Assembly (NCBI GenBank): GCA_023245935.1
Contig: JAHFJM010000001.1
Location: forward strand, 124,001-188,000
Reading direction: 5' to 3'
Length of the DNA stretch: 64,000 bases
Source of the DNA: Candidatus Peribacteria bacterium
GTDB lineage: Bacteria; Patescibacteriota; Gracilibacteria; Peribacterales; Peribacteraceae
The notes below the pieces were generated by a model. The model was not told the DNA's origin. It worked only from the letters and a program-made list of their open reading frames with translations, and ran no database searches. Positions 38,919 to 54,545 of the stretch are shown here, one piece after another (the stretch's first letter is position 1; every line of letters begins with the position of its first letter). Position numbers and translations under genes: made by a program.

Positions 38919-40931
38919 CTACTTCGCCTGCAAATCGATCGCGTACAATTTTTTCTCATCCAAGACGTACAGTCTGGAGTCGTCGCTATCCACATAGAGG
39001 TCTTTCAGTTTTCCGACCTGGTCGGAGTCGAGAATGTACTGCTTCAAGTAGAGCGAATCTCCAAGATCACCGTCCCCCGTCGTGACAACGATTCGTTTGT
39101 TGTCAGGATCCAGGAAGTAGAAATTTCCGCTTGCCGACGACTTAAAGATCTTTGTTACGCCGTTCAATGCGCCCGGCGGGAGATTGCGAATATTGAAGCT
39201 CTGCTTCTCACCGCGGAGCAGTTTCTGGACATCACGCTCTCCCGGTTTCTCCGGCGTGGAAACGTCACGGAGGACGTACACCGGTCCGACGATTGCCATG
39301 TCGATCGCCCCCGTCAGATCACCGTTGACGTTGTATTCGGCGGGAGGTCCGTACTTATCGGAGAGACGTTCGTACTTGTAAATCTGTTTCCTCTCGGGCG
39401 ATAAGACGTACAGGTAGCGGAGGTACGTCGAGATGCTGGATCCCGTGACCCATCCGGCAGGATCTTCCGTTTTCATTGTCTGAGCTTGCCCATTGATAAT
39501 CTCGATGACACTGTTGCCCGTCGTCATGAATACCTTGCTCTGGAAGCGGGGGAACCATGTGCCCTTCAGGATCAGCTCTTCAGTACCGAGCTTGTCTCCA
39601 TCCTCAACCGTATTCAAGGAAATGCGGTACAGGTTCTGTCTGTCGTAGACGAGGAATTCTCCGCTCGGCAGACCGATGAAGCCTTGCGCGACAATATCGG
39701 GTTTCTTCGCGCTCAAATTTGCCATCACGCGCGGAGGAACGATACGAATGACCCGGTTCATCTCTTCGCGTTTCGATTTAATGCGTTCCAGCAAGTCCAA
39801 TGCTTCGCTTCTGAAGAGCCCGCTCTCGTTTGCCATCACCTGCTTTCCGCGCTCCTCGGCGCGTTGCAAGACCGCGTTTGCACTCTCCGTATCGCCCGCG
39901 AGCTGCCTGTTCTCCGCAGTCACCAGGTCTGCGCTGATTTGCTTCATGAGCAACGTGAGCTCACCTCTCGTTTGGCTCTTCTGGCTGACGACACTCAGTT
40001 GGATGACCATCCAAACCACAAGGAAGAGCGCGGCGCTGCCGGCAAGAAGGAGAAGATGCGCCCTGCGTTTTCGATCGGGATCGTAGAGATCACGTACGAA
40101 GGAGCGCGTCGATTCTCCCATTGCATGGGAAAGATCTTTCGCTCTCTTGGTTACTCCTTTGATGCGCATTTTCTCAAGTGCAGGTGACCACTCCATTTTT
40201 CCGAAGAGTGCCCCAACCGATGAGAGCATCGGAGAGAGTGACATTTTCTTCCTTGACCGCAGACGCTCCGGCGCTCTGCGTTTGTTGTCCTGCGCTGCTT
40301 TCGGATCACCTTCCTCCTCCGTTGCGATGATATGGGCGACGCACGCGATTTCTTTTTCCGCCGCAAGAGCGGACACGATGCTCTGCACGACCGTTTCACT
40401 TTCGTGCTGTGTCATCTTCACGAGTTGTGCCGGCGTGATTGTTCGCAACAAGCGTTGCGACGCAAAAATAAACTGATCACGTCCGCGTACGGGACCGCTC
40501 AGAATCTGCATGAAGGCGACCGGGGCTTTCCCTCGGGGAGAGAACTCGGTCACTTGCGTCGCTGTTCCGTCACGGATGATGTACGCCTCGGCACGACCGA
40601 TGTTGGAGAGGTGCAGCGTTCCTTCCGATTCGACCAGACCGACCAACGCATGCACATCGGAGACCGCCTCGGAGAGCGTGAACCCTTTCAGGAGACCGTT
40701 CAGTTCCTTCAGCGCACTCTCCAGTCGTTCGTACCCGTTTCCTTCGCCTTCGAGGATCACATGTTTGAGGACGGTGAGGAACTCTTCTTTCAAATTATCG
40801 GCACCCTCGGCTTTCCCCTCACACTGGATCAGAAAAAAAGCCCGGTCACTTTTTTCCGTTCCAAGAACAACAGGCACCAACATCGTTCCGTGAGGTGACT
40901 TCGTTTGCCCCGTCGTGACCGTAAGCTTCAT
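38919..40931 (-). CDS. PP2C-like membrane protein with C-terminal beta-propeller
   Basis: This protein of about 670 residues has an N-terminal PP2C/SpoIIE-like phosphatase-type domain (1-215). Some expected features are seen (VHALVGLVESEGTLHLSNIGRAEAYIIRDG), but the canonical acidic metal motif (DGD/DG) is not, so activity is doubtful. One membrane helix follows at about 295-315 (HLLLLAGSAALFLVVWMVIQ), then a coiled coil, then a repetitive beta domain (about 400-670) like a TolB/NHL propeller. Similar proteins are common in candidate phyla radiation genomes. A sensory or envelope role is inference. An upstream TTG at 40988 is less likely. Confidence 0.75.
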   Translation of the reverse strand: MKLTVTTGQTKSPHGTMLVPVVLGTEKSDRAFFLIQCEGKAEGADNLKEEFLTVLKHVILEGEGNGYERLESALKELNGLLKGFTLSEAVSDVHALVGLVESEGTLHLSNIGRAEAYIIRDGTATQVTEFSPRGKAPVAFMQILSGPVRGRDQFIFASQRLLRTITPAQLVKMTQHESETVVQSIVSALAAEKEIACVAHIIATEEEGDPKAAQDNKRRAPERLRSRKKMSLSPMLSSVGALFGKMEWSPALEKMRIKGVTKRAKDLSHAMGESTRSFVRDLYDPDRKRRAHLLLLAGSAALFLVVWMVIQLSVVSQKSQTRGELTLLMKQISADLVTAENRQLAGDTESANAVLQRAEERGKQVMANESGLFRSEALDLLERIKSKREEMNRVIRIVPPRVMANLSAKKPDIVAQGFIGLPSGEFLVYDRQNLYRISLNTVEDGDKLGTEELILKGTWFPRFQSKVFMTTGNSVIEIINGQAQTMKTEDPAGWVTGSSISTYLRYLYVLSPERKQIYKYERLSDKYGPPAEYNVNGDLTGAIDMAIVGPVYVLRDVSTPEKPGERDVQKLLRGEKQSFNIRNLPPGALNGVTKIFKSSASGNFYFLDPDNKRIVVTTGDGDLGDSLYLKQYILDSDQVGKLKDLYVDSDDSRLYVLDEKKLYAIDLQAK

Positions 40932-41234
40932 ACGGGAAAGGAGGCTACTCTGATACGGGATGGGCTGCAAGATTTTAGGACGATTCAAAAAGTGTGGAAG
41001 GTTGGGTAGGTTGAGTAGCTGTGGTGCAGAAAGAATCCCACCATGTATCGATTTGCGTCACCTGCCGAACCTACCGCACTTATCCTACTTTCAAAACCTT
41101 TTTTCCAACTAATAATTCATTGATTCTAAGCCAAAAAAACGTTCTCTTCACAAAAATAGACTTGCGTTCGTTCCTCAGGGAGAGTACCATGAAGGTCGAA
41201 GTTTACTCTTCGTTTCTATTCTTACACATCGTTC
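40932..41234. other. intergenic region upstream of RNase J
   Basis: About 300 bp between divergent genes. It holds imperfect repeats of GGTTGGGTA and GGTTGAGTA words (about 41000-41021) and a roughly inverse copy (41065-41097). The RNase J start lies 6 nt after TACACA. I see no credible gene in it. Confidence 0.35.
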
Positions 41235-49522: not shown

Positions 49523-49963
49523 ATGAAAACAGCCGCAACAAACCGCCGTGCGCGTTTCGATTACGAGATCCTCGACCGGATCGAAGCCGGCATCGTGCTC
49601 ACGGGGCAGGAAGTGAAGTCGTGCAGGCTCGGGCAGGTGAGCCTTCTTGGGTCGTACGTGTCGTTCGTTTCCGGTGCTCCGGTCCTCAAGGCGATGAAGA
49701 TCAGTAAGTACGCGTACGCTTCGGGGCTCGACGGATACGACCCCGGGCATGACCGGAAACTTCTCCTCTCGAAAACTCAGAGTGCGAAAATCCAGTCGGC
49801 ATCAAGCGAGAGAGGCATGACGGTGGTGCCGCTTGAGGTGCTTGCCGGGAAATTCGTGAAAGTCGTGATCGGCATTGGTCGCGGCCGAAAGACGCTCGAC
49901 AAGAGAGCGCGCATCAAAGAGCGTGAGGTGAGCAGGAGAGTGCGCGAGAGAGGAGAGTACTAG
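49523..49963 (+). CDS. smpB: SsrA-binding protein
   Basis: This 146-residue protein binds tmRNA and helps rescue stalled ribosomes. Family signatures are ARFDYEILDRIEAGIVLTGQ, EVKSCRLGQVSLLGSYV and the basic tail GRGRKTLDKRARIKEREVSR. Length is typical. ATG lies 6 nt after extended -10 TGC TATCCT. The tmRNA gene itself is not seen in this window. It converges with the 49960 gene, overlapping by 4 nt. Confidence 0.96.
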   Translation: MKTAATNRRARFDYEILDRIEAGIVLTGQEVKSCRLGQVSLLGSYVSFVSGAPVLKAMKISKYAYASGLDGYDPGHDRKLLLSKTQSAKIQSASSERGMTVVPLEVLAGKFVKVVIGIGRGRKTLDKRARIKEREVSRRVRERGEY

Positions 49964-51063
49964 TGCAGCATCTCACGCAGTTTCTCGAGTGAGTCTGTGC
50001 CAAGCAGTGCCGCAGAGAGATCGAGATATGCCATATCCCCAAACCGCAGCCCCAGAGCTTGATGGTAGATCTGGTACTGGCGTGCGATGGTCGTTACTCC
50101 CTCATCGTTCTCGGCGATGGCTTCACGCATCATCAAAAACTCGAGGAGCAGACGTCGTTTCATTGTTTTCGCTCTGCGCTCATCGTCGAGTGGCGGCGCA
50201 CCCGGGCCGATCAGTTTTCCGAATGAGAGACTGAGAATTCGGTCGAGTGAATCATGATCGAGATCCATGGGATCCTCATCTCCTTCCTGCTCATAGAAAA
50301 TCTCCTCAACCATTGTATCAAATTCTTCCATAGAGTTATTCCCCGGACCATCGACCCATTCATTTGCAAGAACGGCGAGTGCCTCCATTCGGAGGAATGG
50401 GGTGATGCCGACTCTCTTCTCGAACAGTGCGAGGATTTTCTTTCGCACATCGAGGAGGCGGCGTTCTATATTCGTCTCGTCGACCTCTACCAGGAACGGC
50501 ATCGCTTGCTTCAGTTTTTCCCGTGTCGTTTGCAGATACAGTTTTGGCGCAGCGTAGTCTCCAAGGAAGTGCCATGCAATCTCCGCGTCGGCTGCATTCG
50601 CTTGCAGGTACTGGCGGTGAGGAGGCTCCAATTCGGACTTTTTTTTGTACGGTGCCCCATACAGAACAACAGGATCTTGCTCATCGAATGCCAGCATCTT
50701 TTTCTCCTCTGCTACAAACCCGAGTGATGCTCGTATCTGTTCGAGCCAAAGATTTTCCGGGTAGGCGTTTGCATGATGCAGAATTCCCGACATCATCGTC
50801 GCACGGTGAGCAATATGATGAAGCACCATTCGCTGATCGGACAGATCCTGATTTTTGACCCCGTCGATCGTTTTGAGGTATTCCACGAGCTTCAGTCTCG
50901 AAAATTCCCGCGCATGAGCAAGTGTAATCCCGGGATCCGCTTCGAGGACGGATCGTCCCCAGTTGGACTCTTTCTCCATAAGCAGAACGAGGTCAGCATC
51001 GAAGGTTTTATGATCCCATCCTGCGATGAGCTGATCCATATGATTTGGAATTGCGATTGCCAT
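49960..51063 (-). CDS. hypothetical protein
   Basis: This 367-residue protein is acidic, soluble and largely helical. There are no signal peptide, membrane segments or metal motifs that I recognise. The N-terminal third contains HHIAHRATMMSGILHHANAYPE, rich in His, which could bind metal but is not a known motif. The promoter (TTGATT, 17 nt, TACCAT) lies 9 nt before the ATG. It diverges from recR, with 53 nt between starts. Function unknown. Confidence 0.72.
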   Translation of the reverse strand: MAIAIPNHMDQLIAGWDHKTFDADLVLLMEKESNWGRSVLEADPGITLAHAREFSRLKLVEYLKTIDGVKNQDLSDQRMVLHHIAHRATMMSGILHHANAYPENLWLEQIRASLGFVAEEKKMLAFDEQDPVVLYGAPYKKKSELEPPHRQYLQANAADAEIAWHFLGDYAAPKLYLQTTREKLKQAMPFLVEVDETNIERRLLDVRKKILALFEKRVGITPFLRMEALAVLANEWVDGPGNNSMEEFDTMVEEIFYEQEGDEDPMDLDHDSLDRILSLSFGKLIGPGAPPLDDERRAKTMKRRLLLEFLMMREAIAENDEGVTTIARQYQIYHQALGLRFGDMAYLDLSAALLGTDSLEKLREMLH

Positions 51064-51116: not shown

Positions 51117-51713
51117 ATGTCTCTCCTCCCCCCGCAAATTCAGAAGGCAGTCGAGGAGTTCAGCAAACTGCCCGGTATCGGACCAAAGTCCGCGGAGAGG
51201 CTGACATTTCATTTACTGCGGAGTAGTAAAGCATCTGCTGAGGGCTTGGGTTCGTCGCTCCTCGCACTGAAGCATGATCTGAAGTATTGCAGCATCTGTC
51301 AGATGATCACACTTCAGTCTCCGTGTGCAATCTGTTCCGACCGCACACGAGACGTATCAACCGTTCTCGTTGTCGAAGAACCGCTCGAAGTCGTTGCCTT
51401 CGAGAAGGCGGGATACAAGGGGTTATATCATGTTCTTCATGGCGTACTCTCGCCGATCGACGGTATGGGTCCGGAGCAGCTGAAATTGAAGGAACTTGTA
51501 GATCGTTGTGGTAAAGGAACTGTGAAAGAGCTCATTATCGCAACGAACCTCGACGTCGAAGGGCAGGCGACGGCGGCGTACATCAAGCAGAAATTATCAT
51601 CGGTCGTTCCGAGTATTACGCGACTAGCTCATGGACTTCCGATGGGTGCGGATATCGAATTTGCGGATCAGGTCACGCTGAAAGAAGCGATTGCGGGGAG
51701 AAGAAACGCCTAA
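51117..51713 (+). CDS. recR: recombination protein RecR
   Basis: This 198-residue DNA-repair protein acts with RecF/RecO to load RecA. It has an HhH region (FSKLPGIGPKSAERLTFHLL), the C4 zinc finger CSICQMITLQSPCAIC, and a Toprim domain (VLVVEEPLEVVAFEKAG and GQATAAYIKQKL). ATG lies 6 nt after the extended -10 TGC TATCCT. Length is typical. Confidence 0.96.
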   Translation: MSLLPPQIQKAVEEFSKLPGIGPKSAERLTFHLLRSSKASAEGLGSSLLALKHDLKYCSICQMITLQSPCAICSDRTRDVSTVLVVEEPLEVVAFEKAGYKGLYHVLHGVLSPIDGMGPEQLKLKELVDRCGKGTVKELIIATNLDVEGQATAAYIKQKLSSVVPSITRLAHGLPMGADIEFADQVTLKEAIAGRRNA

Positions 51714-52624
51714 TTCTTCCGGTTCTCTTCATCGAGAATTTTCCTCAATCCTCGGATGTATTCGGGTGTCGTGCCGCAGCAGCCGCCGACAATGAGTGCG
51801 CCTGCATCCAGCCACTCTCGAGCATAGTTTGCGTATGCTTCCGGAAAGTGTTCGTCGTGGAAGATCCATCCTTGGTCCGGATGAGGTTCTCCGTCCCCGT
51901 TCGCATACACTCCGCACGGAAGTGTGGTGCAGGAGAGCATTCGTTGCAGTGACAGGCCGATGCTCTTGGCATCCGAACAGTTGGTGAGAACCGCGAGCGG
52001 GGCATACGGGAGGATAGTGGCAATGACATCTTCGATTGGGTCACCGTCGAAGAGGTTGCCATCCTCTCGGCAGAGAAAACTGACAACCGTTTCCATGCCG
52101 ACTTTTTTCGCCGCTTCGAGCACGGCAACCGTCTCGCGAACCGAGTTCATTGTTTCGATCCAGAGCACATCCGCACCGCCGTCTTTCAGGTTTTGCACCA
52201 TGTCCGCATGTTCTTCGATCAGCGTGCTCATTTTCGCCGGGACAAGCCCCGGTGTGTAGCAGTCTTCAACCGGTGCGATGGATCCGCCGATGAGAACGGT
52301 GTTTTGTCCGGATTCTTCCGCAGCCTCCCGTGCCAATTTACACGCACGCATCGTGTACTCCCGCGCACGGTTTGGAATGTTCGCATGATCGAATGTCCGT
52401 CGGTTCGTTCGGAACGTATTCGTCGTGATGATGTCCGCGCCGGCATCGATGTACTCTCGATGAATGTTTTTCACCTCCTCGGGATGTTTCATCAATGCCT
52501 CTGCAGACCAGAGGGGCAATGTCGTCTTGATGCCGCGGCGCTGCAGTTCGGTTCCGAAAGCGCCGGAGAGGAGAATCCGTTCGCGTTTCTTCAGCCTGTT
52601 TTTCAGATGATTGAGCGCGGACAT
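51710..52624 (-). CDS. homocysteine S-methyltransferase (MmuM-like)
   Basis: This 304-residue zinc enzyme of the MmuM / MetH N-terminal family transfers a methyl group to homocysteine. The fold begins ILLSGAFGTELQRRG. Zinc ligands are the Cys of LTNCSDA and the adjacent pair in GGCCGTTPEYI. Such enzymes usually use S-methylmethionine or S-adenosylmethionine. It follows an MMT-like methyltransferase by 3 nt, and the two could form a short S-methylmethionine cycle. It overlaps the recR end by 4 nt. Confidence 0.92.
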   Translation of the reverse strand: MSALNHLKNRLKKRERILLSGAFGTELQRRGIKTTLPLWSAEALMKHPEEVKNIHREYIDAGADIITTNTFRTNRRTFDHANIPNRAREYTMRACKLAREAAEESGQNTVLIGGSIAPVEDCYTPGLVPAKMSTLIEEHADMVQNLKDGGADVLWIETMNSVRETVAVLEAAKKVGMETVVSFLCREDGNLFDGDPIEDVIATILPYAPLAVLTNCSDAKSIGLSLQRMLSCTTLPCGVYANGDGEPHPDQGWIFHDEHFPEAYANYAREWLDAGALIVGGCCGTTPEYIRGLRKILDEENRKN

Positions 52625-52627
52625 TGT

Positions 52628-53596
52628 TTAGACCATGGTAGCCTGAACCACGTAGATGGAGTGGTAGACATGCAGTCCGGCATTGCGTCGCTTCAACGCC
52701 TCCGTTGCATTGATCGGTTCATTGCCCTCGGGATCACAGAAGAATTCGAATTCATGTCCCGTGACGTCTTTCATGACATGTTCGCGTTTGGCGAGCGGTT
52801 CGAGCTTCGTTCCCTCATGCTGTTGTACGATTTCCGCATGCAGCACTTCAGGGAGGAATCCGTTTTTTTCGAACATGTTCATGAGCAGATCCCGCCCCGG
52901 TCGACCGCCGAGATTCAGGACCACACTGCCGTTCTTCGCAAGAAGCTCTTTTGCTTCCAGTAGCAGCAGACGTTGTAATCCCAAACCGAAATCGTCGATT
53001 TCCGCTTCATGGTGATCGACTTCATAGTAGTGCGAGTAACTGTCTCCGTCTCCGAGGTGCACGCTCTTCGGGCAGGGGACTTGCGGCAGACAACCGTATA
53101 CGATATCAGGTCGCACATTGTGTCTTTCTGCCCATGCAATCAGGCTCAGTTCTCCTTCGCACAAATGAATGGTAGAACGCTCATCGGGTGTGAGCAGGCG
53201 GTCTGCATTCCGTGCCGCAACCGGAGCCATCCTTCTGTCGTAGTCTCCGGCCCAGAGTGCCTTCGGGCGATCGTGCTTCGGACGATTCGCAAGGTATGCC
53301 GCATTGATGCCGCTGCCGACACCGGGCTCCAGGATGGTCTTTCCGGCAACATCCAGTTTTTCCAGTCCTCGGAGAAGCGCTCGGGACCAGTTGTCGGGAA
53401 CGAATCCATAGGGAGGGACTTCGATCAGTGTCGATTTCCCCGTGAAATTTTTTGGGAAAATATCTTGCACGTCATGCGCATGAAGGGGGTCAAACTCTTT
53501 CGGATGTTCCGGACGAATAATGCGCGGGGCTATGCGTCCCTGTTCCGGTGATGCTTGCCAGTCTTGATGTTCGAATTCTGAGGATTGAAATTCCAT
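52628..53596 (-). CDS. methionine S-methyltransferase-like SAM methyltransferase (MMT/MmtN type)
   Basis: This protein of about 322 residues is a class I SAM methyltransferase. The order of motifs recalls the N-terminal domain of plant methionine S-methyltransferase: GFVPDNWSRALLRGLEKL, KTILEPGVGSGINA (SAM loop), IVYGCLPQV, DFGLGLQRLLLLEAKELL and VVLNLGGRPGRDLLMNMFEK. The CxPQ in place of NPPY and the GGRPG motif are the most specific. I infer formation of S-methylmethionine from methionine and SAM. The next gene, a homocysteine S-methyltransferase, could use that product. An in-frame start 49 codons earlier is unlikely. Confidence 0.72.
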   Translation of the reverse strand: MEFQSSEFEHQDWQASPEQGRIAPRIIRPEHPKEFDPLHAHDVQDIFPKNFTGKSTLIEVPPYGFVPDNWSRALLRGLEKLDVAGKTILEPGVGSGINAAYLANRPKHDRPKALWAGDYDRRMAPVAARNADRLLTPDERSTIHLCEGELSLIAWAERHNVRPDIVYGCLPQVPCPKSVHLGDGDSYSHYYEVDHHEAEIDDFGLGLQRLLLLEAKELLAKNGSVVLNLGGRPGRDLLMNMFEKNGFLPEVLHAEIVQQHEGTKLEPLAKREHVMKDVTGHEFEFFCDPEGNEPINATEALKRRNAGLHVYHSIYVVQATMV

Positions 53597-53751
53597 GAGC
53601 GGGGGGAAGGACCTGAAGAAAAAATCTCGCGTGATTCGCGAGTGCGGACTCACATGTATGGCGCAGTATGCCGACCAAAAATCACCCGTCAATATTTCAC
53701 AGGCATTTTTTTTACTTTCGGCTTCTGGAAGCCGAAAAATCATCGTAAAAA

Positions 53752-53779
53752 GTAGAGACGCAAAATTTTGCGTCTCTAC
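53752..53779. repeat. GTAGAGACG palindrome (copy 1)
   Basis: A perfect 28-bp palindrome without spacer, arm GTAGAGACGCAAAA. It lies 13 nt after the SIMPL stop. The same arm start GTAGAGACG occurs in the palindrome at 60024-60054. A separate 7-bp hairpin (CGGCTTC/GAAGCCG) is at 53719-53734. Confidence 0.75.
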
Positions 53780-53792
53780 AGACTTTGAGATC

Positions 53793-54545
53793 TCAGCGCA
53801 ATTCGTACGTCAGCGTCACATTTGACGTGATGTCTTGCTCCCCAGACGGTACCGGCAGACTGACATCAGCTTCTCCGCCTCCACCCATCCCCATCCCCTT
53901 CGCCATCATCGGAACGGGACCGCCGTAGTTGATGTCCTCGTTGAATGCCGTGAGTCGACCGAGGCTCATGCCGAGAGACCTTGCGAGCACGACTGCCTTC
54001 GCTTTTGCTTTCTGAATCGCCATTGCCCGGGACTGCGCCTTCAGATCGTCCGGATTATCGATGGAGAAACTGACACCGCCTGCCTGGTTGGCGCCGGCAT
54101 TCGTTGCGGCGGTCAAGACGTCACCCACGGTATCGAGATCACGCACTTTCACGACAAGAGACTGATTCGCCTCGAACCCGCGAGGAACTTGCGTGCCGTT
54201 CGTGTAATCGTAGACGGGGTTCAGCCAGAAGCTCTGTGTAGAGATGTCTTTCTCCGCGACTCCCGCTTTCTTCACGGCTGCGATGATTGCCGTCATATTC
54301 TTCGTGACGAGCGCGATCGCCGCTTTCGCACTCGGCTGCCTTCCCGTTGCGACGCCGAAGTTAAGCAGGGCGATATCCGGAGCAGAGGTTACTTTGGCAT
54401 CCGCGTAGACGGAGATCGTTGCGGGATTCTGCTGCGGTGCCCGTACTTCCATGTTCTTTCCAACCAAATAGAAACTGCCGCCGATGATGACTGCTGTGAG
54501 AATTGCCCAGACGGGCGGTCGCAAGGTGAGAGTGGTGTTTTCCAT
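53793..54545 (-). CDS. SIMPL (DUF541) domain protein, membrane-anchored
   Basis: This 250-residue protein has a single N-terminal membrane segment at about 11-30 (VWAILTAVIIGGSFYLVGKN) and one SIMPL domain (about 43-245), with ISVYADAKVTSAPDIALLNF and AIQKAKAKAVVLARSLGMSL typical of the family. A glycine/methionine-rich stretch (MAKGMGMGGGG) interrupts the end. SIMPL proteins are envelope proteins of loosely defined function. A promoter with TTGTCC, 17 nt and TACAAT lies 9 nt before the ATG. Confidence 0.88.
   Translation of the reverse strand: MENTTLTLRPPVWAILTAVIIGGSFYLVGKNMEVRAPQQNPATISVYADAKVTSAPDIALLNFGVATGRQPSAKAAIALVTKNMTAIIAAVKKAGVAEKDISTQSFWLNPVYDYTNGTQVPRGFEANQSLVVKVRDLDTVGDVLTAATNAGANQAGGVSFSIDNPDDLKAQSRAMAIQKAKAKAVVLARSLGMSLGRLTAFNEDINYGGPVPMMAKGMGMGGGGEADVSLPVPSGEQDITSNVTLTYELR

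Follow-up and report, generated by a model that had tools for sequence, protein, structure and literature searches.

In plants, the S-methylmethionine (SMM) cycle consists of the reactions of methionine S-methyltransferase (MMT) and homocysteine S-methyltransferase (HMT), with MetK, AhcY and a methionine synthase of the cobalamin-independent type alongside. Plant MMT carries a C-terminal aminotransferase domain (PMC9135737). In 2022, Peng et al. (PMC9135737) described functional MmtN enzymes of Group II; the sources were five CPR bacteria, a woesearchaeon and Adineta. The same authors found HMT linked to MmtN in several prokaryotes, hypothesised an SMM cycle and stated that most CPR/DPANN organisms are unable to make methionine. 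The main text of that paper does not mention Peribacter, Wirthbacteri or Gracilibacteri, and no other paper treating an mmtN-HMT pair in CPR was found in the CC-licensed PMC literature.

The gene pair examined here lies in a 64,000 nucleotide stretch of a Candidatus Peribacteria genome (the window). A preliminary description of the locus had regarded a linked pair in a reduced genome as unexpected. The genome is indeed reduced (1.22 Mb in 8 contigs, 99.06% complete) but, since such pairs were already published for CPR bacteria, the pair is to be expected rather than surprising. The genome size and a phylum in common with the Wirthbacteria genome G113 point to a CPR bacterium. The idea of an SMM cycle in CPR is not new, having been proposed in 2022 (PMC9135737), and the pair in the window is a further member. 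The features of the locus are as follows.

51117-51713, convergent to the pair: recR (TIGR00615 above cut-off)
51710..52624, minus strand: gene for an HMT of 304 aa, predicted to act as S-methylmethionine:homocysteine methyltransferase
52628..53596, minus strand: mmtN-like gene, 322 aa from the ATG at 53596, predicted methionine S-methyltransferase of Group II type
53626..53642, minus strand: terminator-like hairpin between promoter and mmtN ATG (scan; the leader fold gives a 6-bp stem there)
53665..53692, minus strand: sigma-70-like promoter, TTGACG-N16-CATACT (scan and alignment with congeners G001 and G002)
53752..53779, minus strand: terminator-like hairpin that follows the SIMPL gene and sets it off from the pair (scan)
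53793-54545: SIMPL-domain gene

As first described, the methyltransferase gene is followed after 3 nt (52625-52627) by the HMT gene; both lie on the minus strand. The open frame of the mmtN-like gene extends beyond the ATG at 53596 to another at 53743. It is likely that the two genes form an operon for an SMM cycle, with activities as predicted from their homologues.

The methyltransferase

The motifs C169-L-P-Q, FGLGL (203-207) and NLGGRPG (228-234) were present in the order given in the preliminary description. When the protein was compared with PDB sequences using phmmer, residues 60-318 matched R. indicus MmtN (7vvv) with E 2.3e-35; two more R. indicus MmtN entries also matched, and the sole remaining hit, at E 0.76, was noise. 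No family was matched among NCBIfam and Pfam models at 1e-3. A PrmC or rRNA methyltransferase identity was ruled out, as no such family model matched at 1e-3 and the only significant PDB match was MmtN. A phylogeny had been called for in the preliminary description; in a tree of 12 proteins, comprising nine MmtN-like rows (R. indicus and Rhizobium Group I included) and three divergent relatives but no PrmC row, the protein joined the R. indicus MmtN clade at 100/100. The nine rows were split at 100/100 from the divergent proteins of G056, G025 and G319, while the branching order among the nine was mostly unresolved.

The highest identity, 42%, was to the protein of G618. Identity to two Group I proteins was 31–37%, the value for R. 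indicus MmtN being 37% over the aligned part. An identity to Group I of around 30%, a phylum shared with the Wirthbacteria genome G113 and an adjacent HMT gene agree with Group II, to which the protein is putatively assigned on comparison with Group I proteins. A small genome and the lack of DMSP genes seen nearby are further features in common with the Group II MmtN and HMT of CPR and Woesearchaeota (PMC9135737). The C-terminal aminotransferase domain of plant-type MMT (Group III) is absent, the protein ending at 322 aa with no Pfam domain. An AlphaFold model, predicted from two sequences, had a mean pLDDT of 48 and was too poor to use.

In the comparison with Group I MmtN, the SAM-binding residues D69, S101, L102 and C121 of the R. 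indicus enzyme are kept as D118, S151, L152 and C169, and its gate tyrosine is retained as Y191. In contrast, the methionine contacts are not conserved: E127 is replaced by C175 and R132 by H180, and E250 lies opposite a gap. The residues that bind the trimer phosphate differ too, with E199 for P169 and L213 for R183; both were reported as strictly conserved when MmtN sequences from marine bacteria were aligned, which may not hold for Group II (PMC9135737). The loss of the methionine contacts, together with the absence of a curated family match, could mean that the enzyme methylates a substrate other than methionine. This appears very improbable. The positions of E127 and R132 also differ from R. 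indicus in six other MmtN-clade proteins of the same phylum, CPR Group II enzymes were active on methionine (PMC9135737), and the gene is linked to an HMT gene. The methionine-contact residues were described for Group I, with 'most' but not all of them kept in Group II, and the R. indicus variants E127A and R132A retain >50% activity (PMC9135737). The changed contacts count against a simple MmtN reading. Given these published results, the protein was classed as MmtN-like, with a reservation over the methionine-contact residues.

Recurrence of the pair and the methyl donor of the HMT

The preliminary description had suggested a search for the same gene pair in relatives. An adjacent mmtN-HMT pair recurs in three other families, in genomes G618, G601 and Wirthbacteria G113, with identities by multiple alignment of 31–42% for MmtN and 40–51% for HMT. 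In G113 the two genes overlap, and serine hydroxymethyltransferase and formate-THF ligase genes lie nearby. A search with the methyltransferase at E 1e-3 matched 3 of 96 genomes including its own, the other two being of the divergent type; a draw from the phylum searched at 1e-5 gave 4 of 379 genomes, and an alignment-based search of the class at 1e-6 gave 12 of 353. By score, six of these 12 were assigned to the MmtN clade (G000, which is the present genome, G618, G601, G563, G524 and G527) and two, G056 and G025, to the divergent type; four weak matches (G581, G682, G667 and G634) were left out of the count. HMT was found at 1e-5 in 4 of 96 genomes, and the other three had no methyltransferase match in the 1e-3 search. 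A peptide-pattern scan of genome contigs returned one locus only, on the contig of G113, probably because the patterns were narrow. No pair was found in the viral contigs scanned.

The divergent methyltransferases form a clade related to MmtN (L003:922-2061, L004:1360-2376 and L008:1312-1932), in which N replaces the SAM-contact cysteine and GGRVP replaces GGRPG. No HMT was found in the genomes of this clade (G056, G025 and G319).

With G113 added to the six genomes of the class search, HMT adjoins mmtN in four of seven MmtN-clade genomes (G000, G618, G601 and G113). The remaining three are TGA-recoded, and a whole-genome search of them gave no HMT. Such genomes would fit a role for SMM as an end product, whether as solute, storage compound, export product or DMSP precursor, with HMT only recovering the surplus, and Group I MmtN does serve DMSP synthesis (PMC9135737). 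Against this, no recognisable downstream DMSP enzyme gene was seen among the immediate neighbours scanned, so that the window gene, unlike Group I mmtN, is not linked to DMSP genes there, and no strong DMSP candidates are reported for CPR genomes in the published study (PMC9135737). An end-product role is considered improbable, and a cycle is preferred. In two of the recoded genomes (L033:2444-4923 and L034:934-3560) the mmtN-like gene has a threonine-synthase-like gene as its convergent neighbour, at most 50 nt away, whose match to TIGR00260 is above cut-off in L033 and below it in L034.

The HMT of the window matched PF02574 (E 2.8e-65) and, among PDB sequences, E. coli MmuM 5dml (E 1.3e-36). 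Its cysteines C216, C282 and C283 aligned with those of E. coli MmuM and correspond to the zinc ligands of the family; the triad is intact, as had been noted before. The NCBIfam scores were 177.5 bits for MmuM (PRK09485), 164.4 for PRK08645 and 159.0 for BHMT, all below their cut-offs, that of MmuM being 215 bits. The protein shares with E. coli MmuM its Pfam family, its cysteine triad and its best NCBIfam model, but is only 32% identical to it, compared with 37% to a bacterial BHMT, and has MmtN in place of the MmuP transporter as its partner.

The closeness of these scores, which do not fix the donor, and the annotation of the best plasmid hit as a betaine enzyme would be compatible with an HMT mainly using SAM, an aged SAM stereoisomer or betaine, and so removing homocysteine or damaged SAM while MmtN makes SMM. 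This is judged unlikely, because the two genes are neighbours in each of the four genomes found to carry both and because the betaine and folate types form a separate clade. In a 12-row tree, from which L011 (G088) was left out for its long branch, the MetH and BHMT types grouped with G029 at 99/96. The four linked HMTs lay outside this group, and the tree did not settle whether they belong with MmuM. The four linked HMTs clustered at 92/91 in a 9-row tree and share the motifs LPLWSA and EDCY-x-P-x-LVP. All four fall below the MmuM cut-off; of the three outside the window, two scored highest with the MmuM model, whereas that of Wirthbacteria scored 2 bits higher with another model. For the window protein the model scores lie nearest to MmuM, and the methyl donor is probably SMM, a conclusion that comes from context more than from sequence, which does not fix the donor by itself.

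The recR-SIMPL interval

The pair lies between the convergent recR and the SIMPL-domain gene, beyond which are sufC and then a ferredoxin-like ORF. The two congeners searched, G001 and G002, keep the order recR, SIMPL, sufC and ferredoxin-like ORF at ~80–91% identity and lack both the mmtN and the HMT gene. Approximately 91 nt around 53660-53751 are common to the window and both congeners at 79–81% identity and include the promoter-like TTGACG-N16-CATACT. The promoter scan found 1 site where 1.2 were expected in shuffled sequence, so the promoter is not significant on its own. The conserved promoter-like block of the three genomes lies in window 53626-53752, L045:3712-4073 and L046:3908-4294. 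In the two congeners it is followed by unrelated ORFs, 81 and 91 aa long, the latter having no Pfam match. Remnants of the pair were sought in the congener slots and none was convincing, the best protein match having E 0.16.

Since both congeners searched lack the pair and the interval holds unrelated small ORFs there, the pair behaves as variable cargo, and the recR-SIMPL interval is a possible gene-exchange slot. An accessory trait is suggested, as the pair is missing from both congeners and the slot holds different genes in them. The pair may have been gained here or lost in the congeners. Composition gave no sign of a recent transfer, the GC3 and codon fit of both genes being within the range of 16 other window ORFs. 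Elsewhere in the window, the ORFs at 49960-51063 (minus strand, 367 aa) and 38919-40988 (minus strand, 689 aa) had no Pfam match at the thresholds used, and the former had no NCBIfam match either.

The leader of the pair was compared with Rfam for a riboswitch and gave sub-threshold matches only. The hairpin at 53626..53642 may possibly act as an attenuator.

Methionine metabolism and the proposed cycle

The genome encodes a MetK N-domain, AhcY (TIGR00936, 596 bits against a cut-off of 497.6) and MetE (TIGR01371, 1013 bits against a cut-off of 930). AhcY was present in 21 of 39 genomes searched, its own included. Removal of SAH by an MTAN-type nucleosidase was rejected, as PF01048 was not found in the genome and AhcY is present. 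The presence of MetE also means that HMT is not needed for methionine synthesis, and the idea that HMT is the cell's only methionine synthase was rejected. At G000:C4:47879-51032 (L036:3880-7033), the end of the metE gene is overlapped by a 266-aa ORF with a weak match to a model that contains MTHFR (E 8e-6), perhaps a divergent or short MTHFR. Compared with the published Group II pairs (PMC9135737), no MetRS was seen beside the pair, MetE is present and the slot differs between congeners.

As MetK, AhcY and MetE are encoded in the same genome, an SMM cycle could close. MmtN would methylate methionine with SAM as donor, which yields SMM and SAH; AhcY would split SAH to homocysteine; and HMT would pass the methyl group of SMM to homocysteine, giving two methionines. 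The net flux would be from SAM to methionine without folate, by which excess SAM and methionine might be buffered. The synthesis of SMM followed by methyl transfer to homocysteine, as put forward in the preliminary description, is thus a prediction favoured by the homology to MmtN, the HMT partner and the presence of MetK and AhcY. Very probably the two genes make SMM and return it to methionine in a plant-like loop, with the same two reactions as in plants and, as there, MetK, AhcY and a methionine synthase that does not use cobalamin. The KM values of R. indicus MmtN lie in the mM range (PMC9135737), which suits an overflow valve.

A wider proposal, which we put forward tentatively and regard as rather doubtful, is that the SMM cycle belongs to an accessory gene cargo that can be exchanged. 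A promoter fixed across the genus in the recR-SIMPL interval would feed different genes in each species and here would drive a leader-controlled mmtN-HMT operon, venting surplus SAM beside a complete folate-type methionine cycle and so mirroring plants.

As the methionine contacts published for MmtN are changed in the CPR-phylum enzymes of this clade, their substrate site needs a structure of its own. What is new in the present work is the set of other cycle enzymes in the genome, the motif of the mmtN-linked HMTs, the possibly exchangeable slot and the occurrence of MmtN without HMT in TGA-recoded genomes. The comparison with the empty slots shows that the pair varies between congeners. A well-supported member is added to the proposal of an SMM cycle in CPR, together with a genome context, for one lineage, in which MetK, AhcY and MetE occur together.
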